Positions 1,979 through 24,600 of a stretch of DNA of 30,926 bases are shown piece after piece (position 1 is the first letter of the stretch; every line of letters begins with the position of its first letter). A program made the translations under genes and the position numbers. The notes under the pieces were generated by a model. That model did not search any database. It worked only from the letters and a program-made list of their open reading frames with translations, and had not been told where the DNA came from. Source of the DNA: a virus; IMG/VR virus record IMGVR_UViG_3300030101_004070, positions 1 through 30,926 of that record; one strand, given 5' to 3'.

Positions 1979-3985
1979 CTAAGACTCTGAACCAGGTTCG
2001 TTTTCATCTTCAGTCTCCAAAGATTGTCCCATTTGGTCTACCATCATGCCTAACTGCATCACCTTTTCTTTTTCTTTTACTTTAGTGGATGATTTTATTT
2101 CTCCTAATTGAGATTTAAATTTCTCTACTTCTGTTCGTTTTCTGGCAGATACCATTTCACGCTCAGATGTTTGTAGGTCACCACTTAGCTTTCTAACTTG
2201 ATTTTCAAGCGATGTGATATACTGTTGCATTTGTGCCATACGTCCTTTTCTTTGAAGAACACCTTCTTTGTCAAAGATTTCAGTTTTCTTTAAAACCTCG
2301 ACATCATCTACCAGTCCAAGTTTATAAGCATCAAGGTACATATTGTACTCTGCAACCTTATTGCTTGGTAAAGTTGAACCTGATATTACTCGAATGTCAT
2401 GCTGACCCAACTGAATATCGTTGGTTATTGTCAGTATTTCATTTCGTTTATCATCATACATTCTCATATTAACTGAAAATTCAGTAATATCATTATTTGG
2501 TTGTACGATTCTAAATGTTTTTGCAAACCTATAGTGGTCTTTAGCTAAATTATATACTACTTGACCAACCATAGATAAACTTGCTTCTATATCTCTTAAT
2601 TTTGATTTACCTCTTGATTCTCCCATTTCAGATAAAAGCATAGTACCTCTAACTGATTCTGGTGCAGAGTCTTTGAATCCTTGCAATAACTCTGGTATTC
2701 CAAAATTTAAATCTATATATTTTTCTACCCTATCGATTAAATAATAAAACTCACTTGTTAAAGGAGCTGGTTGAGGATAATGAGGTTCTCCAAATTCTGG
2801 GTTATATTCTATAACAGCGTTTGGGTTAGCCCAATCTCTTTCTAGTTGACTTACATTATCTATGCTACCTTCAGGTATTAATAATTTTAATCCAGCAGCT
2901 GACTGAGCGTGTGACAAGGTTAGAGAGAATAACTTATTTAAAAGCCTTTGAGAGTCTTTAACCTTGTTCACATCTGACTTTGGATAGGGAGTATTAGTCC
3001 AAATGTTCGTAAAAGGAACAATTGGATAGATATCAGTATTTAATATACGCTCATATAATAAAGTGTCTCCAATGCTACTGCATTGTGCAATTCTTGTTTG
3101 CATAATTTCTTCTATTTGTATAGAACCATCATTAATAGCTTTTTCTGTTTCTGCTTCTTGTATAATTTCTAAATATACTTCTGGGTCTACAATTTTCTCT
3201 GCTCCTGTCAATGTGTTAAATAATCTGTAATAAGGAACTTTTACTTTATAGAACCTATCTAGTATTTGATATTTTTGAGAAACACTATAATCTAAATCTT
3301 TAGCTTCAGCTGGTGTTAAAACAGCATTACTGTTTTTCAAACTACTGTTCGGGTAATCCTCTCCATACAAAGAGTTAACTCCAACTTCTATATCATCAAT
3401 CATTTCTTCTAATTGTGGATATAAATCTAAAACTTGTCTTCTTGTAAGAAACGTAGATAATATAATACCTGAAGCATCATTAAAAAACCTATCTCTTGCA
3501 GCTGGGTCTACATATACTCTAAATGGGTCTACATGAGTATACTTTACTTCACCTCTTCCATAATCAGCTTCTGGGTCTACAAAAACATACATATATCCTA
3601 AACCAGTTACAGCGTAATCGTGAACTACTTGTTTGAAAGTACTATCTCCGTTAGATATATCCCAAATATATTCTAGGATAGTTCTCCATATGTTTGCTAT
3701 TTTATTATCAGAGTCTTCTCTAGCAATAACAGAAAACCTTGCAGGTCTTGCTGTTAAAAGAGATTTTAGTTTATCAACAGCTGCATAAACTCTATCTATT
3801 ACAAAATCTGCTTGACCTACAGATTGAAGTGCATCTGATTCATCTGTGCTGTAATGATTACCTAAAGTAAAGTCTACTGCGTTTCTTGCCTCTAAATCCC
3901 ATCTTTGTCTAGCGTCTCTCCAACGTCTGAATAATTCTTTTGTGATTTGCGGTTTTGATTTGTTGTTTTCGTCGTAATTTGCCAT
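1979..3985 (-). CDS. Portal protein (P22-like family)
   Basis: This 668-residue protein begins after a GGGAG site at the ATG at 3985. Portal proteins form the dodecameric ring at the capsid vertex through which DNA is packaged and ejected. The N-terminal region has the typical run of a portal clip and wing (RRWRDARQRWDLEARNAVDF, then IDRVYAAVDKLKSLLTARP and VDPFRVYVDPAARD), matching P22-type portals, and the length is close to that family (about 650-725). Residues about 580-640 form a long helix rich in Q, K and E, like the C-terminal barrel helix. The gene lies directly downstream of TerL (63-bp gap) and upstream of scaffold, which is the canonical order. The fold assignment is confident; details of the subfamily are inferred. 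Confidence 0.9.
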   Translation of the reverse strand: MANYDENNKSKPQITKELFRRWRDARQRWDLEARNAVDFTLGNHYSTDESDALQSVGQADFVIDRVYAAVDKLKSLLTARPARFSVIAREDSDNKIANIWRTILEYIWDISNGDSTFKQVVHDYAVTGLGYMYVFVDPEADYGRGEVKYTHVDPFRVYVDPAARDRFFNDASGIILSTFLTRRQVLDLYPQLEEMIDDIEVGVNSLYGEDYPNSSLKNSNAVLTPAEAKDLDYSVSQKYQILDRFYKVKVPYYRLFNTLTGAEKIVDPEVYLEIIQEAETEKAINDGSIQIEEIMQTRIAQCSSIGDTLLYERILNTDIYPIVPFTNIWTNTPYPKSDVNKVKDSQRLLNKLFSLTLSHAQSAAGLKLLIPEGSIDNVSQLERDWANPNAVIEYNPEFGEPHYPQPAPLTSEFYYLIDRVEKYIDLNFGIPELLQGFKDSAPESVRGTMLLSEMGESRGKSKLRDIEASLSMVGQVVYNLAKDHYRFAKTFRIVQPNNDITEFSVNMRMYDDKRNEILTITNDIQLGQHDIRVISGSTLPSNKVAEYNMYLDAYKLGLVDDVEVLKKTEIFDKEGVLQRKGRMAQMQQYITSLENQVRKLSGDLQTSEREMVSARKRTEVEKFKSQLGEIKSSTKVKEKEKVMQLGMMVDQMGQSLETEDENEPGSES

Positions 3986-4049
3986 ATACTCCCATTTTGT
4001 ATTTTACGTCTAAAATAATAAGTTTACGACGTTATTGTCAAGATAAATA

Positions 4050-5633
4050 TTATATTTTTTGTCCAGTAATCCAACTTACTGCTCTACTGGCTACGTTTTT
4101 ACCTTTATTTGACATTCTTTCTTCAAACTTGCCTTTGTCTATAGCACTACTTTTTGGTGGCTTTGCTGTTGTCACAGCATACCATAAGCCGTCTAAAAGG
4201 TCATCATTTCTACCTTTTGGAAATTCAAACATCTCATCTACTAAGTCTTGATGCTCTTTTTTTATAAATAATTTTCTACCATTAACAATAGGGCAAAGCA
4301 AAGATTCTAATCTATCTTCTTTTTTTATTCCTCCTGGTGGCCTTACGCCCTGAGATAAGCCTGGAGCTAGTTTTCTGTCAGAACCAGCTAATTTGTTTAC
4401 ATGGTCCTTAATTAATCCTTGAGCTCCTACTTTTTCTACATTTACCCTTCTAACAGGATGAAATTTTCTAGCTATGTCTATTATTTGTTTTGGCATATCA
4501 TATAAAGGAGAATGCTCTCTGTAATAATCTAATAGATATATATTTCTATCACTGTCTATTGCTATTGTTACAATTACTTGATAATCGCTTTTTGCATTTG
4601 CTTCATAAGCTAAGTCTACTCCCATGTATAAGTGAACAGGTATTGCTGCTTCATCTATCATCATGTAATTAAAACCATTTCTATTTTCAACATGTCCTCT
4701 ATAGTAATTTATTCTGTCAATTAAAAATTTAGCATTTTCTACATCTCTAGCTTCATTTAGGTATTCTTGTGCAAACTTATGCACTAATCCCATATCAGTA
4801 AACCTACTTTTTATATCTAAAAGTTTTCTCTTACTAAAATAGTTTGGCCACAAAGGTATGTTATCCTGTATAGCTTTTTTATATAAGACAGCCCAGGCAG
4901 ACTTTCTATCGTCTCTCTGGGCGTCTAACCAACCATCGTAAACTCCTTGTAGGAAAGAGTCGTAATGGACTATCGTACCAATAAGCCATATTGAACCTTC
5001 GTTTCCTTTGGAGTTTTCTAGAGCGGGTTCTACTGTTGACATAACCCATTCTTTAATCTCCTTTCTTCTATCTGGTGTTTTAGTGTTTAGCTCTGATTCA
5101 AAATCATCTAAAATAATATTTGTATATCTCAGTCCAAGTTGCGACCTACCTCTTAGTCTTTGAGATGTACCTTTAGCTATGATTCTATCTCCTCTAGCTG
5201 TTGTAAATTCTTTTTCTGTCCACTTGCTACCTTTCAAGTCTCCAAAGTAATATTGCAAAGCAGGATTCATATCAATGTGATTTTGTATATATTTAATATG
5301 GTCAATAGCCTGAGATTGTTCTTCAGAAACCCAAGCTATAAATTGTTTTTTTTCAGGAGGTGAAAAGTAAAGCTGATACAATAATGCGGTTTTTGCTAAA
5401 GTAGACTTAGCATGACCTCTAGGAAGTATAATGCATATTCTTTTTTCATCGCCTAATAACAAATCGCTCAACTCGTATTGATAGGGCGCTGGACCAGATT
5501 TCATAAAATCTTCTGGTAAAAACATTTGACCAAAAGTAATTATGTCTTTTTTTGCTAGTTCTAAAGCTTTTTCTTTTTGACTTAGGTCAGGAGGTATTAT
5601 ATTAAACTGTTGAGGTTTCGTATTTTTTTTCAT
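4050..5633 (-). CDS. terL: Terminase large subunit (ATPase and nuclease)
   Basis: This 527-residue motor protein packages DNA into the procapsid. The ATPase half shows a Walker A-type loop PRGHAKST at residues 71-78 (the Ala-Lys-Ser variant common in terminases) and Walker B IILDD at 173-177 followed by E179. The nuclease half has an RNase H-like first strand YMGVDLAY with D340, a second acidic residue at D350 (KSDY), and a C-terminal NDDLLDGL at 476-483. These are the expected acidic metal ligands. Length and order are normal. The gene overlaps the upstream cyclotransferase-like gene by 32 bp, implying translational coupling, and precedes the portal gene. All catalytic residues appear intact. 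Confidence 0.95.
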   Translation of the reverse strand: MKKNTKPQQFNIIPPDLSQKEKALELAKKDIITFGQMFLPEDFMKSGPAPYQYELSDLLLGDEKRICIILPRGHAKSTLAKTALLYQLYFSPPEKKQFIAWVSEEQSQAIDHIKYIQNHIDMNPALQYYFGDLKGSKWTEKEFTTARGDRIIAKGTSQRLRGRSQLGLRYTNIILDDFESELNTKTPDRRKEIKEWVMSTVEPALENSKGNEGSIWLIGTIVHYDSFLQGVYDGWLDAQRDDRKSAWAVLYKKAIQDNIPLWPNYFSKRKLLDIKSRFTDMGLVHKFAQEYLNEARDVENAKFLIDRINYYRGHVENRNGFNYMMIDEAAIPVHLYMGVDLAYEANAKSDYQVIVTIAIDSDRNIYLLDYYREHSPLYDMPKQIIDIARKFHPVRRVNVEKVGAQGLIKDHVNKLAGSDRKLAPGLSQGVRPPGGIKKEDRLESLLCPIVNGRKLFIKKEHQDLVDEMFEFPKGRNDDLLDGLWYAVTTAKPPKSSAIDKGKFEERMSNKGKNVASRAVSWITGQKI

Positions 5634-6003
5634 ATACCCTATCTAACATAATTAAAGTTTTCATTGAATGCCAGTCACCATCTGGTACTTCTGTAAATGT
5701 TCTAGACTTTTCCCAAAGCTTTGGACCTGCTACATAAATCCACGCTTTTTCTTTTTCCCCGTTATCTAATTCTACATTTACAGTAGTTCTTATATACAAA
5801 CCACCTTCAACGTTTTCATACTCGTCATACATATTTAGTTCTTCTGGTGTTATATCCATAAGCTCAACAATAGCACCTTTGCCTTTTTCATTTTTAATTA
5901 TAGCTGGAAAGGATTGTGTTCCAGGAAAAACTAAACTAAAACCTTTTATTTTTCCTTTATCTGGATAGTCTCTTCTTAATGTACCATATACCGCTAATCT
6001 CAT
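5602..6003 (-). CDS. Gamma-glutamylcyclotransferase-like (AIG2/GGCT fold) protein
   Basis: This 133-residue protein begins MRLAVYGTLRRDYP. The YGTLR motif at residues 6-10 is the signature substrate-binding loop of the gamma-glutamylcyclotransferase fold, and YDEYENVEGGLYIR near 59-72 matches the segment carrying the catalytic glutamate (probably E63) and the conserved Tyr/Arg. Known members release 5-oxoproline from gamma-glutamyl amines or from gamma-glutamyl-modified lysine, or open glutathione. The gene is wedged between TerS and TerL: its ATG overlaps the upstream stop (ATGA) and its 3' end overlaps terL by 32 bp. In this phage it could act on products of the amidotransferase/amidoligase pair at 11522-14705; that link is inference. 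Specificity cannot be read from the sequence. Confidence 0.85.
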   Translation of the reverse strand: MRLAVYGTLRRDYPDKGKIKGFSLVFPGTQSFPAIIKNEKGKGAIVELMDITPEELNMYDEYENVEGGLYIRTTVNVELDNGEKEKAWIYVAGPKLWEKSRTFTEVPDGDWHSMKTLIMLDRVYEKKYETSTV

Positions 6004-11339: not shown

Positions 11340-11353
11340 CTTATAATATGAAA

Positions 11354-11499
11354 GACACAGACAAACCCAAGGACATTATTCTATATTGCAGACGAAGTTT
11401 TATTACTTATTTCAGCTGTCTGCAGACTCCTTTCACCTTGGGTGTCTGTGCAAGAATTTTAAGTCGGTACGACAGGTCGGACGATACCGAGAACTTAAA
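11354..11499 (+). ncRNA. Structured RNA leader of the amidotransferase gene
   Basis: Two adjacent folded domains precede the ribosome site at about 11508. Domain 1: CACAGACA (11356-11363) and CCCAAGG (11366-11372) pair with CCTTGGGTGTCTGTG (11436-11450), 15 base pairs with one two-base bulge, closing a loop in which TGCAGAC (11387-11393) pairs with GTCTGCA (11418-11424); a small AAGT/ACTT hairpin sits inside. Domain 2: TTTAAGTCGGTA (11458-11469) pairs with TACCG-AGA-ACTTAAA (11485-11499), 12 pairs with a three-base bulge and a 15-base loop. No T run follows either domain, so these are not terminators. It could be a riboswitch-like leader, a protein-binding autoregulatory site or an RNase III processing element. 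No known family recognised. Confidence 0.6.
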
Positions 11500-11521: not shown

Positions 11522-12685
11522 ATGTGTGGAATATATGGTATGGCTAAGAGCCAACGACCTTATACCAGTAAAGATTGGGACGAAGTCAGACGCATAATGC
11601 GTTGTATGGCTATGGACAGCGAAGTCCGAGGTGCTCATTCGTCTGGTATTGCAGGCGTCGGTAATCAAGCCGTAATACATAAATCACTACTAGAAAGCTC
11701 AAGGTTCGTCGATACCAAAGAATACAATTCAGTAATCAAAGGTCTGCGTAATGACGTCAATATTATTATTGGTCATACTAGATTTGCGACTGCAGGTAGT
11801 ATTACTAAGGATAACGCACACCCATTTAGAGTAGGCAACGTCGTTGGTGCTCATAATGGTTGCGTATATAATATAGACGAAATGGAAAAGAAGTTAGATA
11901 AAAATTGTCCAGTCGATAGCCAATTAATATTTAAGGCATTAGACTTAAACGACAATTTTCAATCTGCAATTAAACATTTCGACAGCGACTTTGCCTTAGC
12001 TTATGTCAAAGATAATCCTAATGTCTTACATTTATGTCGTGAAACCAATAGACCTTTATATGTTGCTTACGTTAAACATTTACAGACTCTATTTTTTGCG
12101 TCAGAACAAGATTTCGTCGAACAACCTCTGTTTTTATTCACAGAGCTAGACGAAAAAGACATTAACGTCGTAAAACTAAATAGAAATAATCTATATAGCT
12201 ACGACATAAATAACTTTGACAAAGAAGGTAGCAATCCGACAAAGACTAAATTCAAATTCGATTCAAGAGTCTATACTTATGGTCTTAATTCATACTATAA
12301 TACTAAGAATCTTTATTCTTTTGGCAAGACAAAGACTGCAGACCTTGTTGGCGACACCACGTACACCTTTAATGGTAATACAGAATGGGAATTAGCTAAC
12401 GACTATGCGTCTCTTCCTGACGATTGGAAACAAGATGATTGGTTTAAAGATGAACAAGAGAACCTAGCGACTATCTATGGTGGTAGTGCTGAACAATGGT
12501 TCTTTGACTCTGATGAAGGTGTTTGGATGTATGCTACTATGGACGGCAGAATACTGCCAGAGTCTGTAATGGCTAATGTCGGACAAATGAACATGTTTAG
12601 TCCTGAAGAGGACGAACTCTTAATCGACGAAACAGACGACGCAGTTGCTATGGACGTTGCGGAAGGTATAGAAAATGCCTCCTGA
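11522..12685 (+). CDS. Class II glutamine amidotransferase (Ntn hydrolase)
   Basis: This 387-residue protein begins MCGIYG, so Cys2 becomes the N-terminal nucleophile after Met removal. Further class II hallmarks are RGAHSSGIAG (36-45), GHTRFATAG (84-92), NAHPF (98-102), AHNG (110-113, oxyanion hole), VDSQ (131-134) and DFALAY (156-161), in the order of GFAT and amidophosphoribosyltransferase N-domains. It should hydrolyse glutamine to glutamate and ammonia. There is no sugar isomerase or synthetase domain; the last 150 residues are acidic and unassigned, so the acceptor domain must be another protein. The next gene, an amidoligase, overlaps by 11 bp and is the obvious partner. A strong AGGAG site and a folded RNA leader precede it. 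Confidence 0.9.
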   Translation: MCGIYGMAKSQRPYTSKDWDEVRRIMRCMAMDSEVRGAHSSGIAGVGNQAVIHKSLLESSRFVDTKEYNSVIKGLRNDVNIIIGHTRFATAGSITKDNAHPFRVGNVVGAHNGCVYNIDEMEKKLDKNCPVDSQLIFKALDLNDNFQSAIKHFDSDFALAYVKDNPNVLHLCRETNRPLYVAYVKHLQTLFFASEQDFVEQPLFLFTELDEKDINVVKLNRNNLYSYDINNFDKEGSNPTKTKFKFDSRVYTYGLNSYYNTKNLYSFGKTKTADLVGDTTYTFNGNTEWELANDYASLPDDWKQDDWFKDEQENLATIYGGSAEQWFFDSDEGVWMYATMDGRILPESVMANVGQMNMFSPEEDELLIDETDDAVAMDVAEGIENAS

Positions 12686-14705
12686 GTTCAGACAACAAAT
12701 AGACAGACTTTCACAAGAAGTCAACGACGCACTTGACAACGAACAACAAGTAATTGAGGAGTGCGTCAATTGTGGTTGTAGCGTCGATGAAGACCAAGTA
12801 GTCCATAATGACTCTAATGAAGCTCATTGCGACGATTGTTATTACGAAAGACACTTTAATTGTGGTAGTTGTGGTGATGAAACCGACGTAAGTGATGAAG
12901 TTAGTGCTGATGGCATGAGTCTTTGTCAAGAGTGTTTTGATGACAACTATGACTATTGCTCTAATTGCGACGAGGCTCTTCATAGGGACGACATGGTATG
13001 GAACGACCATGAAGAAGCTTATCAATGTGAACATTGCTACGAAGAAAATAGCAGTCTAGTTGAGTGGGAAGTTATGAGCAACGACTACGTTAAAACAAGG
13101 TCTGACTTTATAACTCCTCTTACTTCAGGATATAGTATGCACAAAGGCAGACTTATCAAACAAACAGACCCTAATATGTTGTCAATAGAAAATAGACGAC
13201 ACAAAAAAGCTACGAAGTGGATGAAAGATTCTCACGACGTAATTAAAAGTAAGCGTCTTGTTGGTTTGGAGTTGGAGATAAACTTAGACCAAGGATACTA
13301 TGACTACGAAGATGACTATCAAGACGATATTCATTATCTATTGACTAGTCGTCTTTGTCAGTCTAGACATGTTTTGTCTGCGTTTAAGACTAGTCAATAC
13401 CCTCTATATATGCAGGGTAATATGGGTTATACAATAGTTGGAGATTCGTCTGTGACTAGTAGCAATCATCCATATGGATGTGAAGTCGTTACGGCTCCTA
13501 GACGTGGAGATATCATAGTCGCAGATATAAATACAATGTGCAAGACTCTTAAAGACGATGCACACGCTTATATAAGTCAAAATTGTGGTCTACATTTACA
13601 CGTAGACACAAGCGACTTTGACTATAAGCACTTTACTATTTTGACTGCATTGACTAAATTGATAGAACCTCACGTTTATACGTGGCTCCCGTCTAGTAGG
13701 CGTAATAGTCGTTGGTCTCAACCAATAACACAAGACTATAATCAATTAAAAAACGTCTATGATAGAGATGACTTTGTTGATGTTTGGTACGACGGAAATA
13801 ATTACTATCCTGAAAAATACCACGACAAAAGGTATCATGGACTTAATCTTCATAGTCATTTCTATGCGAAGCAAGGGTCTGAAATTAGGTATCATAGTGG
13901 TACTTTAAATGCAGACAAAATCAAACATTGGGTAATATTTTGGACTCAAGTCTTTGATACTGCTTACGACATTGCTGAACGCATAGACACGCCTTTGTCT
14001 TCGTCCTCTTTCTTTCAGTCTTTGGTAGGACAAGATAAAATTGTTCTTACAGACAGAGAAAGAAAGATATTGTCAAACTATAAAAGACATGAACTATCAC
14101 TTACAGACTATACAAGTGTTAAGTCTGACCCTGAACTATGGATACTATATCGTAAGTTAAGGGACTATCATGGACTAAGTACAGATGTAAGTCTGTATGC
14201 TATTGTCTATGGATACCATTACATGAACCCTTGGTATCAAAGACAAGACAAATCTTTGACGTTTGATAGCATGATGGACTTGTTTGACATACCAAAGTCT
14301 ACAAGAGACTTCTATTACAAGAGATATTACAATAGACGAAATGATGAATATTTCGACCATAACCACCTAAAACGTTGTTATGGTAAAGTCGATGAGTGGT
14401 ACTCTTACGATAAAAGAACAGGTGAGTTTACGCTTGTAGACGATACTAGGAGCAGACTTGTTCATTGGCAACAACTTAATAGCAGACGTCCCAAAAGCAA
14501 TAGAGCATGGAGATACGTCTTTAGTGAGCATGAAGTCAAAGAACATATTTGTAGACTAGTAAACGAATACGTAAATCATACTTCTAGTATGTATGCAAAG
14601 TCAGTAATACAATATTCTGACGCAGATAACGATGCTATTGATTTACGACGAGAGTGGTTAGAGGAACAATACAGACGTATTGAACCTGCTATGCCAATCT
14701 TTTAG
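12675..14705 (+). CDS. Putative amidoligase fused to a triple zinc module
   Basis: This protein has 676 residues. Residues 30-121 carry three CxxC-x(17-19)-CxxC modules (C30/C33 with C52/C55; C63/C66 with C84/C87; C95/C98 with C118/C121), LIM- or treble-clef-like zinc units. The body shows the motif series of the Amidoligase_2 (COOH-NH2 ligase, glutamine synthetase-like fold) family: GLELEI (197-202), CEVVTAP (269-275), CGLHLHVD (304-311), RYHGLNL (386-392) and EIRYHSGTLN (403-412). Such enzymes are predicted to join a carboxylate to an amine or ammonia using ATP, and their genes are known to sit next to glutamine amidotransferases, as here (11-bp overlap). Metal- and ATP-binding acidic and His residues look intact. 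The last 240 residues are basic, aromatic and unassigned. Substrate unknown; zinc modules may recruit it. Confidence 0.8.
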   Translation: MPPEFRQQIDRLSQEVNDALDNEQQVIEECVNCGCSVDEDQVVHNDSNEAHCDDCYYERHFNCGSCGDETDVSDEVSADGMSLCQECFDDNYDYCSNCDEALHRDDMVWNDHEEAYQCEHCYEENSSLVEWEVMSNDYVKTRSDFITPLTSGYSMHKGRLIKQTDPNMLSIENRRHKKATKWMKDSHDVIKSKRLVGLELEINLDQGYYDYEDDYQDDIHYLLTSRLCQSRHVLSAFKTSQYPLYMQGNMGYTIVGDSSVTSSNHPYGCEVVTAPRRGDIIVADINTMCKTLKDDAHAYISQNCGLHLHVDTSDFDYKHFTILTALTKLIEPHVYTWLPSSRRNSRWSQPITQDYNQLKNVYDRDDFVDVWYDGNNYYPEKYHDKRYHGLNLHSHFYAKQGSEIRYHSGTLNADKIKHWVIFWTQVFDTAYDIAERIDTPLSSSSFFQSLVGQDKIVLTDRERKILSNYKRHELSLTDYTSVKSDPELWILYRKLRDYHGLSTDVSLYAIVYGYHYMNPWYQRQDKSLTFDSMMDLFDIPKSTRDFYYKRYYNRRNDEYFDHNHLKRCYGKVDEWYSYDKRTGEFTLVDDTRSRLVHWQQLNSRRPKSNRAWRYVFSEHEVKEHICRLVNEYVNHTSSMYAKSVIQYSDADNDAIDLRREWLEEQYRRIEPAMPIF

Positions 14706-14709
14706 GTTG

Positions 14710-14782
14710 TAGACGTAATTAGAGAGCACTTTCCAGGAGTTTCTGGCGACTACTCTCTTTTTACGTCTATAAAAATTTTTTT
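14710..14782 (+). terminator. Large hairpin terminator after the amidoligase gene
   Basis: TAGACGTAA (14710-14718) pairs with TTACGTCTA (14761-14769), AGAGAG (14721-14726) with CTCTCT (14753-14758), and CCAG (14733-14736) with CTGG (14743-14746), giving a long, three-part stem five bases after the stop. It is followed by AAAAATTTTTTT. The T run starts six bases after the stem, so it may combine termination with 3'-end protection. Confidence 0.7.
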
Positions 14783-14815
14783 AATTGAAATATATATATA
14801 CTAGCTAGATAGATG

Positions 14816-14844: not shown

Positions 14845-14850
14845 AAAATA

Positions 14851-14910
14851 TGGCAGGCAAATTACATAGAGATTATATTGTAACACACGGATTGGCGTCT
14901 TTGTCTGCCA
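14851..14910 (+). ncRNA. Structured 5' leader of the replication operon
   Basis: TGGCAGGCAAA (14851-14861) pairs with TTTGTCTGCCA (14900-14910), 11 pairs including one G-U. Inside, TTACA (14862-14866) pairs with TGTAA (14879-14883), directly stacked on the outer stem, and ACG/CGT (14887-14889, 14896-14898) may form a third short arm, giving a three-way junction. It ends 31 bases before the first start codon. A 31-codon frame across it starts at the predicted transcription start and has no ribosome site, so I read the element as RNA structure. No T run follows. Role unknown; transcript stabilisation or translational control are possible. Confidence 0.5.
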
Positions 14911-14941
14911 TAAAGTTTTGTAAGCAACAAAAGGTCTGCAT

Positions 14942-21697: not shown

Positions 21698-24600
21698 CTA
21701 AGGTTTAAATTCTTTTTCTTCTCGTTGTTTTTTAATTCTATCTAAAAGTTTTCTTTCTATAGTTTTCCATGAAATATCTCTTTGAGATATTGCTAAAGTA
21801 GGATATTTTATTCCATAAACCTCATTATATCCCAACATAATTCTTTCTGCTTGCTTTGGTTTGTTTTCTAAAAGAGCATTTCTTATGTCCTCGACAGCAG
21901 TCTTTTTGTAGTATTCTACTCTATCTCTTTTCATACCTTCTGTTTGTAGACCTGGAGTAAGCTTGAAAGACTTATCAATTAAACCTTCTTCCATAAAAGG
22001 AAGTCTGGTTAAAGGTTCTAAGTCAACACCTATACCAGTTCTAGCGATTCTAGAAATGTTAGGACCAAGTATAGGAGCTAAAGTGTTAAATCCTTTTCTA
22101 AAAGGAACGTCCCACTGCTCAGGGTAGTGTGTTTCCATACTTCTAGCAAAAGTTTCAAAAGACTTTATTACCCTTTCAAAGTCATCAACTACAACTGGTT
22201 TTACAAAGAACTTTATAGAAGTTATAGGTTCGTCTCCACCGACTATGTCTCCCAAGACACCAAAAGAACCTACGCTTCTCAATGCATTTATATAGTCTTG
22301 CCACTCAGGAGTACGTAGCATTTTCATTCTACTTTCCTTAGATGTATATTGTTCTTCTCCAGTTATTACAGCATTAAGTTGGTCTTTAGCCCACATAACT
22401 AAATTACCTCCAGCAAAACCTCCTATACCTAGACGTAAAACAGGCAGTAAGTTTCCATGTTTTACTTCGTTTCTTATAGTTTGTTCAATATACTGGGCCT
22501 GTCTTAATCCAAATCTTTTAAATAAAAGTAAAGGTTTTAACATAGGGTCATTAAACATAATAGGGTCTTTTAAGAAGTTTCTTTGTAGCTGAGTTTCTGA
22601 GGCGAATTTTTTCATTCCTAATAAAAGTCTTCTTCTAAACTGTTGCTCTGAAGCTGATTCAAACACTCCGCTTTCTAAAGCTTTTAAGTTTTTTACTAAG
22701 TCATCTGCATCCAAACCTAAAGCCTCAGCCTTACTTCTAGCCCATGCTAATCTTTTATCTTTAGCCCAACCAGGAATCATCGTAGTTAAAAAATCTTTTT
22801 TACCAGCAAGTATTCTACCATATTTTTTCGCCGCTTCTTCAGCAGTAGCAGCAGCAATAATTTGATTCCAAGAATTAACCGTAGAGAATAAAACAGATGA
22901 TTTTCTTGTTGCAAAAGCAATAGCGTCTTTAGACTTTACTTCTCCCTTGTACCAGTCTTTTATAAACTGTCTTATAGGAGCTTCTGTCTTTAATTTCTCG
23001 GCAGCACCTATTTGTAAGGCTCTATCTTGCTGCATTAAATCATCAAAAGCAGTCAAAATTGTAGCACCACTTTCACGTACTCTTTTTCTAAAACTTGAGT
23101 CTACTCCCATTCTAACTAAGCCTTTAAACATAGAACCAAACCCTTGGTCTACAGAAGTAGAAATAAATGACTGTGTTAAATTAGGAATAAAAGCTTGACC
23201 TAAAGATATCTTACTCATCATCTCGAGGTTAGATAAAGACTGCAAAGACTCTGACATAGGGTTTTTAACTCTAAAATTATATTCTCCTGTAAAGCTTTCT
23301 TTTATTAAATTAACAGCAGCAACTTGTGTTTGTTGAGAAAAAGGAAGGAATTGACCACCTAAACTTTTAGGGAATCTACCACCGTCTAATTCTAAATCTC
23401 CGTCTGCCATTTTTATAAGTTGATTATAGTATGCTCCTGTAGGAGTAAATGCTTTAGAAAGTTCAATTCTTTTCGTAGCTCCTCCGATATACTCAGCCAT
23501 AATTTTTGTATAATTAGTCTCCATATAATTCTCAAAAGCATTAGCAACAAGCTTAGACACATCTCCTGAACCTATACTACTGTTAGCTATTTTTCTTGAT
23601 TTTTCAAGAGGACTAAACTCTTTTAAACTACCAGAGAATAAGTTTTGATGAAGAACTCTAAAAACATTATAGTTTTTAGGAACACCAGCAGATGATTCTT
23701 TGTTAGCTAAGAGGTCCCAAATTTGTTTAAATATAACAGCGTCAGGCTTAGAAGAGCCTTCCATTTTTCTTATAATACCCTGTAACATATTTTCTAGTCT
23801 TTGTAAAACATCAGGGCGGTAATTACCATCTATGTTAAAGTCTCCTCCTGTAATCTTCATAATCTTTTTTTCCATAGATTCCATTTGGTCAAACATAGTA
23901 TCTAAAACATCTTTTCTAAACATTCTAGGTAGATAACCGTTAATTCTCTGCCCTACTCTTAGATTTGCTTTCTTAGCATCTGACCATATAGAATCAATTG
24001 ATTTTGTCTTAGAATTATAAACACCACTAGTTGTAAGTTCATCAGAAGCTTCTAGAAAGTTTGCTCTTGCTAAAAGTCTTTCTTTTTCACTTCCTGTAAA
24101 ACCATCTGCTTTTTGCCTTAAATCTCTAAGATAAAGTTTAAAACCTTTTCCTGGATTGTCGGCTTCAAATTGTTGTATTGTTTTGAAATCTTTAAATGCT
24201 GTTTGCTCTCCTGTTCCGTCTAAGTATGTTTTCCACCAATTAGAATGAGCTTTTTCAAAAGAAATTTTAGGTTTTATTATAGCGTCTAACCTATTTAATC
24301 TCTCTGCAGTTTTCTGCTCAGTTGAATTTGCAACATTTTGAATAAGCCTAGTAGCTTTTCTAAGGTAAGGGTCTGTTATATGATAATAAAATGGAGTTAT
24401 AAAACTTCTTATAATACCTCTTTTTGAATTGGTCATAAAGTGAGGTTGATACATAAAATTAATATCATAGTCAGGTAAATTATTTTTTATGAAGTGTCGA
24501 ACCTCTACCTGATTTTCCATCATCTTTGCCATTAACTTCTTTTCAGACAATGTCATATCTTTTATTCTTACTGGTTTACCGTTTGCTATAGATTTTTCCC

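Follow-up and report, generated by a model that had tools for sequence, protein, structure and literature searches.

What would a phage do with a class II glutamine amidotransferase whose gene runs into that of a large amidoligase, behind a structured leader and ahead of a terminator-like hairpin? This question was addressed in the window, by which we mean the whole stretch of DNA analyzed, a 30,926-base uncultured virus record (IMGVR_UViG_3300030101_004070). The phage group looks undescribed. No similarity match to the window DNA was obtained among 50,697 phage records, and the portal protein had no relative in the same records, so that no host could be derived from taxonomy. A genome scan with the amidoligase profile gave no matches, and the same scan with the amidotransferase profile gave three, all in MAGs and so remote (31-32%) that they did not lead to a host either. 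On the minus strand, between positions 21698 and 29677, four successive open reading frames (1503, 656, 217, and 278 aa) had no match in PHROGs and none of significance in Pfam.

Identity and Linkage of the Two Overlapping Enzymes

The two genes and the catalytic core of the second one were located as follows:

11522-12685, plus strand: class II (Ntn-type, Cys2) glutamine amidotransferase (GATase), 387 aa, from PF13522, catalytic residues, and PDB profile matches
12675-14705, plus strand: Amidoligase_2 protein (amidoligase), 676 aa, overlapping the GATase by 11 nt, from PF12224 and an AlphaFold2 model
13245-13982, plus strand: ligase core, residues 191-436 of the amidoligase, from the Pfam match (251-423) and invariant residues

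The preliminary description had read the first protein as a stand-alone class II amidotransferase on account of Cys2, GHTRFATAG, and HNG, and the Pfam search agreed, GATase_6 (PF13522) being matched with an E-value of 8e-15 and 55.4 bits against a curated cut-off of 27. PHROGs returned phrog_4736 (5e-38) and a PDB profile search returned PurF and GlmS. Besides the profile, the GATase displays the N-terminal Cys after Met, the HTR, the NG, and the Asp of class II; M1-C2, R87 of GHTRFATAG, H111-N112-G113, and D132 were invariant in 37/37 relatives. The gene is under purifying selection (dN/dS ~0.17 vs. three relatives), and its relatives were present in 319 phage records.

In the 676-residue protein, the expected Amidoligase_2 motif series was recovered by PF12224 (E-value 3.3e-23; 83.3 bits vs. 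a curated cut-off of 22), and PHROGs returned phrog_2443 (3e-22). E199, E201, D257, S259, E270, H307, H309, and D311 were invariant in sets of 43 and 41 sequences, as were E403, R405, H407, G409, and T410, and purifying selection was also found for this gene (dN/dS 0.23-0.29 vs. three relatives). An AlphaFold2 model built with 41 sequences (pLDDT 78, pTM 0.71) was compared with known structures by Foldseek. YbdK and glutamine synthetases (probabilities of 0.9-1.0) were among the top PDB matches, together with gamma-glutamylmethylamide synthetase and glutamate-cysteine ligase; the best E-value was only 1e-3, and overall TM-scores were low. In BFVD, phage amidoligases were matched with E-values down to 1e-14. 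The modeled fold is thus glutamine synthetase/YbdK-like, which answers the objection that the protein might belong to another fold.

Scans of IMG/VR gave 65 contigs with a homologous GATase, the window included, and 59 of them had at least 300 nt downstream of this gene. The amidoligase lay directly after the GATase, mostly overlapping it, in 58 of these 59 uncultured contigs, the remaining one having only 345 nt downstream of the GATase; the exact 11-nt overlap occurred in 22 contigs. Near-obligate linkage of this kind answers the other objection, that relatives of the amidoligase might never co-occur with amidotransferases. Among eleven named records outside the lineage, picked from match lists, the association was common but not universal: the GATase adjoins the amidoligase in PaP3, QDWS535, phiEco32, Waltz, and Ottawa and lies ~2 kb from it in CW02, and no GATase was found near the amidoligase of the GR1, Taranis, Porphyromonas, and Blautia phages within the stretch examined. 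Since some phage amidoligases have no GATase nearby, members that use an amine other than ammonia are conceivable. For the pair of the window, profiles, predicted fold, conserved catalytic residues, and linkage argue for the proposed formation of amide bonds.

A Reduced Cassette with a Third Enzyme

A further gene with a related predicted activity was detected elsewhere in the window:

5602-6003, minus strand: gamma-glutamyl cyclotransferase (GGCT/GGACT, AIG2-like), 133 aa (PF06094, 2.7e-16)

The GGCT reached 60.6 bits with PF06094 (cut-off 22.8), and its YGTLR motif and E63, the catalytic Glu, were invariant (31/31). It sits between terminase genes, among packaging genes, ~5.5 kb away from the GATase-amidoligase operon and on the other strand, and is not part of that operon. 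Whole-contig searches of 27 contigs, themselves found through their GATase/amidoligase genes, yielded Amidoligase_2 in all of them, always over the Pfam cut-off, and GGCT in 26; in the lone contig without GGCT, the amidoligase is only ~4 kb from the contig end. The COOH-NH2 ligase (PF14395) was found in 0/27 of these contigs, which may be incomplete, with a positive control of 4/4. A RimK-like ATP-grasp was likewise found in 0/27, with a control that detected only 3 of 4, and phmmer with the ATP-grasps of PaP3 and CW02 gave none in the loci examined; its absence is held less firmly than that of the COOH-NH2 ligase. These counts indicate that the lineage retains part of the phiEco32 cassette, namely GATase, Amidoligase_2, and GGCT. 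Membership in the full phiEco32 cassette was rejected because of the absent COOH-NH2 ligase. The operon had also been called a self-contained accessory unit, a view that holds as regards its own structured leader and terminator-like hairpin (see below) but not as regards its independence, the pair being constant in the group (27/27 sampled contigs, found through these genes) and the third cassette enzyme travelling along from elsewhere in the genome (26/27).

The cassette gene set has been annotated in LUZ24-like phages (PMC3890496), in OM43 phages (PMC10580990), and, as a "peptidoglycan modification cassette," in Pseudoalteromonas phages (PMC5498523). Amidoligase and GGCT are annotated in Arthrobacter phages (PMC5513430), and the planctomycete phage ZRK32 carries an amidoligase, a GATase, a GGCT, and a glutathione synthase-like gene (PMC10945688). 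Although the cassette enzymes have been annotated for over 15 years, no substrate or enzyme activity was given for them in the literature found. Proposals for the substrate are reportedly due to Iyer et al. 2009.

The main rival of the protein-directed amidation that we favor below is that the enzymes alter the stem peptide of cytosolic wall precursors, by amidation or gamma-glutamyl linkages, in order to block superinfection by other phages or to make the wall suit the phage. This proposal was published for phiEco32-like and other podoviruses with the same genes, GATase, amidoligase, and GGCT among them (PMC5498523, PMC10580990), and it gains from the full cassettes observed in PaP3, CW02, QDWS535, and phiEco32. 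In the literature found, however, no experiment accompanied it, and the lineage (27 contigs) departs from those cassettes in the absent COOH-NH2 ligase and in the ATP-grasp that was not found; we regard a wall-precursor substrate as possible but rather doubtful.

Zinc Modules on the Amidoligase

The N-terminal part of the amidoligase is the following:

12756-13049, plus strand: amidoligase residues 28-125, forming three LIM-like zinc modules with six CxxC pairs (weak LIM matches)

The six CxxC pairs lie within residues 30-121, and their 12 Cys were kept in 41-43 of 43 amidoligase relatives. Profile and fold matches of the modules were, weakly, to LIM proteins such as PINCH. A true LIM domain (PF00412) was rejected, as the score was 13.4 bits vs. 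a cut-off of 22.9 and as successive CxxC...CxxC units are separated by 7-residue spacers vs. the 2-residue LIM spacer; for both reasons the modules are named only LIM-like. Such modules are absent from the translated amidoligases of PaP3, CW02, Waltz, GR1, QDWS535, and Taranis. A distant amidoligase (3324-5279) in a GC-rich, 106-kb virus contig (L106), beside a GATase, has its own, different Cys-rich N-terminal array, and the third best structural match in BFVD, A0A6J7X2B6 of an uncultured Caudovirales phage (E-value 3e-12; 393 aa vs. 676 aa for the window amidoligase), is labeled "LIM domain containing protein." These two cases indicate that the fusion is not confined to the lineage of the window.

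The modules evolve about twice as fast as the core (dN 0.27-0.32 vs. 0.12-0.15), which might fit an arm that binds a target. They would be unexpected for a substrate as small as the stem peptide, which weighs further against the wall-precursor proposal. Cys-rich modules could alternatively bind nucleic acids, DNA included, and amidotransferase-like enzymes serve base modification in some phages; both points speak for amide formation by the pair on a modified base of the phage DNA. Yet no carboxylate- or hydroxymethyl-installing base enzyme was found among the larger open reading frames of the window, a contig that may be incomplete, and we consider such DNA hypermodification highly improbable. 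A role in auxiliary nitrogen or amino-acid metabolism, in which glutamine nitrogen would be released and re-fixed, or gamma-glutamyl metabolites made, for the infected cell, is compatible with the chemistry of the family. This role was proposed for phage ZRK32, and the growth data in the accessible part of that report are not linked by mutants to the cassette genes (PMC10945688). For work on small molecules, moreover, one would hardly expect a ligase of this size with a fast-evolving zinc arm, and we find this metabolic role improbable.

Structured Leaders and Terminator-Like Hairpin

The RNA elements flanking the operon, and those upstream of the GATase in related contigs (L numbers), were the following:

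11356-11450, plus strand: long leader stem-loop (arms from repeat search, fold z of 11340-11460)
11464-11490, plus strand: second leader hairpin with a conserved AGGTCG (AGGUCG) loop (covarying stems)
14707-14772, plus strand: terminator-like hairpin, then a T run
L064 5862-5954, L074 5862-5952, L036 920-1014, L039 5418-5509, and others: three-helix leader RNA with an invariant TCCTTTC loop (covariation)
L102 5910-5973, L103 5910-5973, and L104 5903-5971: hammerhead-like leaders (complete core, strict descriptor)

Of the structured leader and terminator ascribed to the operon, the first was borne out, and a terminator-like hairpin was found for the second. The region 11340-11460 folded with -33.5 kcal/mol and a z of -4.2, no shuffle being as good, and the region 14700-14785, with the terminator-like hairpin, gave a z of -5.75 and -30 kcal/mol, though a simple terminator scan did not list this hairpin. 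Rfam gave nothing at gathering score in the window, and chance matches only in the leader. Ahead of the next gene (14942) lies a second imperfect inverted repeat (14849-14912) whose 13-nt arms are 92% complementary, and structured leaders may therefore not be limited to the GATase-amidoligase operon.

For the second leader hairpin, eight relatives displayed six distinct stems in which 47/48 cells were paired vs. 31.7 expected (0/5000 shuffles), the stems having been selected visually, with omission of one bulged A in the window. The motif TCCTTTC, located at 11428-11434 in the first leader domain of the window, was present in 40 of 54 distinct leaders, at a position 83-116 nt upstream of the start codon, vs. 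1.5% of random stretches; the leaders share kinship and are not independent in this count. Judging from its letters, base pairing between this motif and the Shine-Dalgarno sequence is conceivable. The TCCTTTC loop also led us to consider an HDV-like ribozyme in the leader, an idea that was dropped because the strand order was unsuitable.

In one large subgroup of relatives, TCCTTTC lies in a three-helix RNA with 96% of cells paired and two-sided changes at 7 pairs (0/500 shuffles). A covariance model of this RNA found further loci at E-values of 1e-7 to 1e-9, and all matches with E <0.001 immediately preceded the GATase and were on the plus strand. In the loci searched, no Rfam entry matched this RNA at gathering score, and it is a candidate new RNA family. 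The model does not recognize the leader of the window itself, even with filters off, so that our claim is limited to the common TCCTTTC and its position and does not extend to one RNA family; a common origin of the two leaders is only suggested.

The leaders of the most distant relatives (L102-L104) present the core CUGANGA - stem II - GAA - stem III - UH - stem I. A strict hammerhead descriptor matched only these loci and nothing in shuffles; their RAGATH-1 matches (E-values 0.006 and 0.002) were below the Rfam gathering score. The predicted cleavage site lies 32-34 nt upstream of the GATase start codon. The leaders of L097 and L098-L100 resemble hammerheads by eye only (L098 in Rfam, E-value 0.11), and the window has no hammerhead core. 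Near the cassettes of PaP3, CW02, QDWS535, and Waltz no RNA family of interest was found, with one sub-threshold microRNA match.

Proposed Mode of Action

The best explanation, which we favor tentatively and with slightly less than even confidence, is glutamine-dependent amidation with targeting by the zinc modules, processing by GGCT, and probably early expression. The GATase would hydrolyze glutamine at Cys2 to release ammonia; the amidoligase, of the glutamine synthetase/YbdK type, would spend ATP to activate a carboxylate, probably as an acyl phosphate, and an amide would be formed, most likely with ammonia transferred from the GATase. The three zinc modules may serve as an arm for binding the target, a cytosolic peptide or protein, or alternatively may dock the GATase, whereas the GGCT would trim or recycle gamma-glutamyl products; the purpose may be directed at the host. 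Expression early in infection is suggested by the plus-strand block that the operon shares with replication genes, and also by proteomics of phage SU10, where the GATase, an ATP-grasp enzyme, and a YtfP-type protein, read here as a GGCT, were early gene products (PMC4281155).

It is conceivable, though we think it unlikely, that the zinc-directed, reduced amidoligase amidates one specific host (or phage) protein under an unrecognized class of leader RNA, replaced by hammerheads in distant members. If true, zinc-directed amidation with its own leader RNA would represent a novel type of host takeover at the post-translational level. With the cassette of this lineage reduced to GATase, ligase, and GGCT plus a candidate target-binding arm, the substrate question could become testable.

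Comparison with Known Systems

The amidoligase-GATase pair as such is already known in phages, for instance in phiEco32; distinct here are the three LIM-like modules, the reduced cassette, and the structured leader. Like the window, phiEco32 (gp77-gp86), PaP3 (orf42-48), and Salinivibrio phage CW02 carry GATase, Amidoligase_2, and GGCT near replication genes. In contrast, cassettes of the phiEco32/LUZ24 type also possess the COOH-NH2 ligase and the RimK-like ATP-grasp, neither of which was found here, and have their GGCT close by; the amidoligases examined among them have 266-398 aa, whereas that of the window has 676 aa and includes, besides its three zinc modules, a long C-terminal part. Arthrobacter phage Waltz has the same three enzyme types and, like the window, no COOH-NH2 ligase, but its genes adjoin in the order GGCT, amidoligase, GATase, and its amidoligase (338 aa) is without zinc modules. 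MurT-GatD combines a Mur-ligase fold with a GATase of a different class and has no homology to the window pair. It performs the peptidoglycan amidation of Staphylococcus aureus and works like the system proposed here, in that a carboxylate is amidated by a ligase together with a glutamine amidotransferase that is a protein of its own (PMC3267633).
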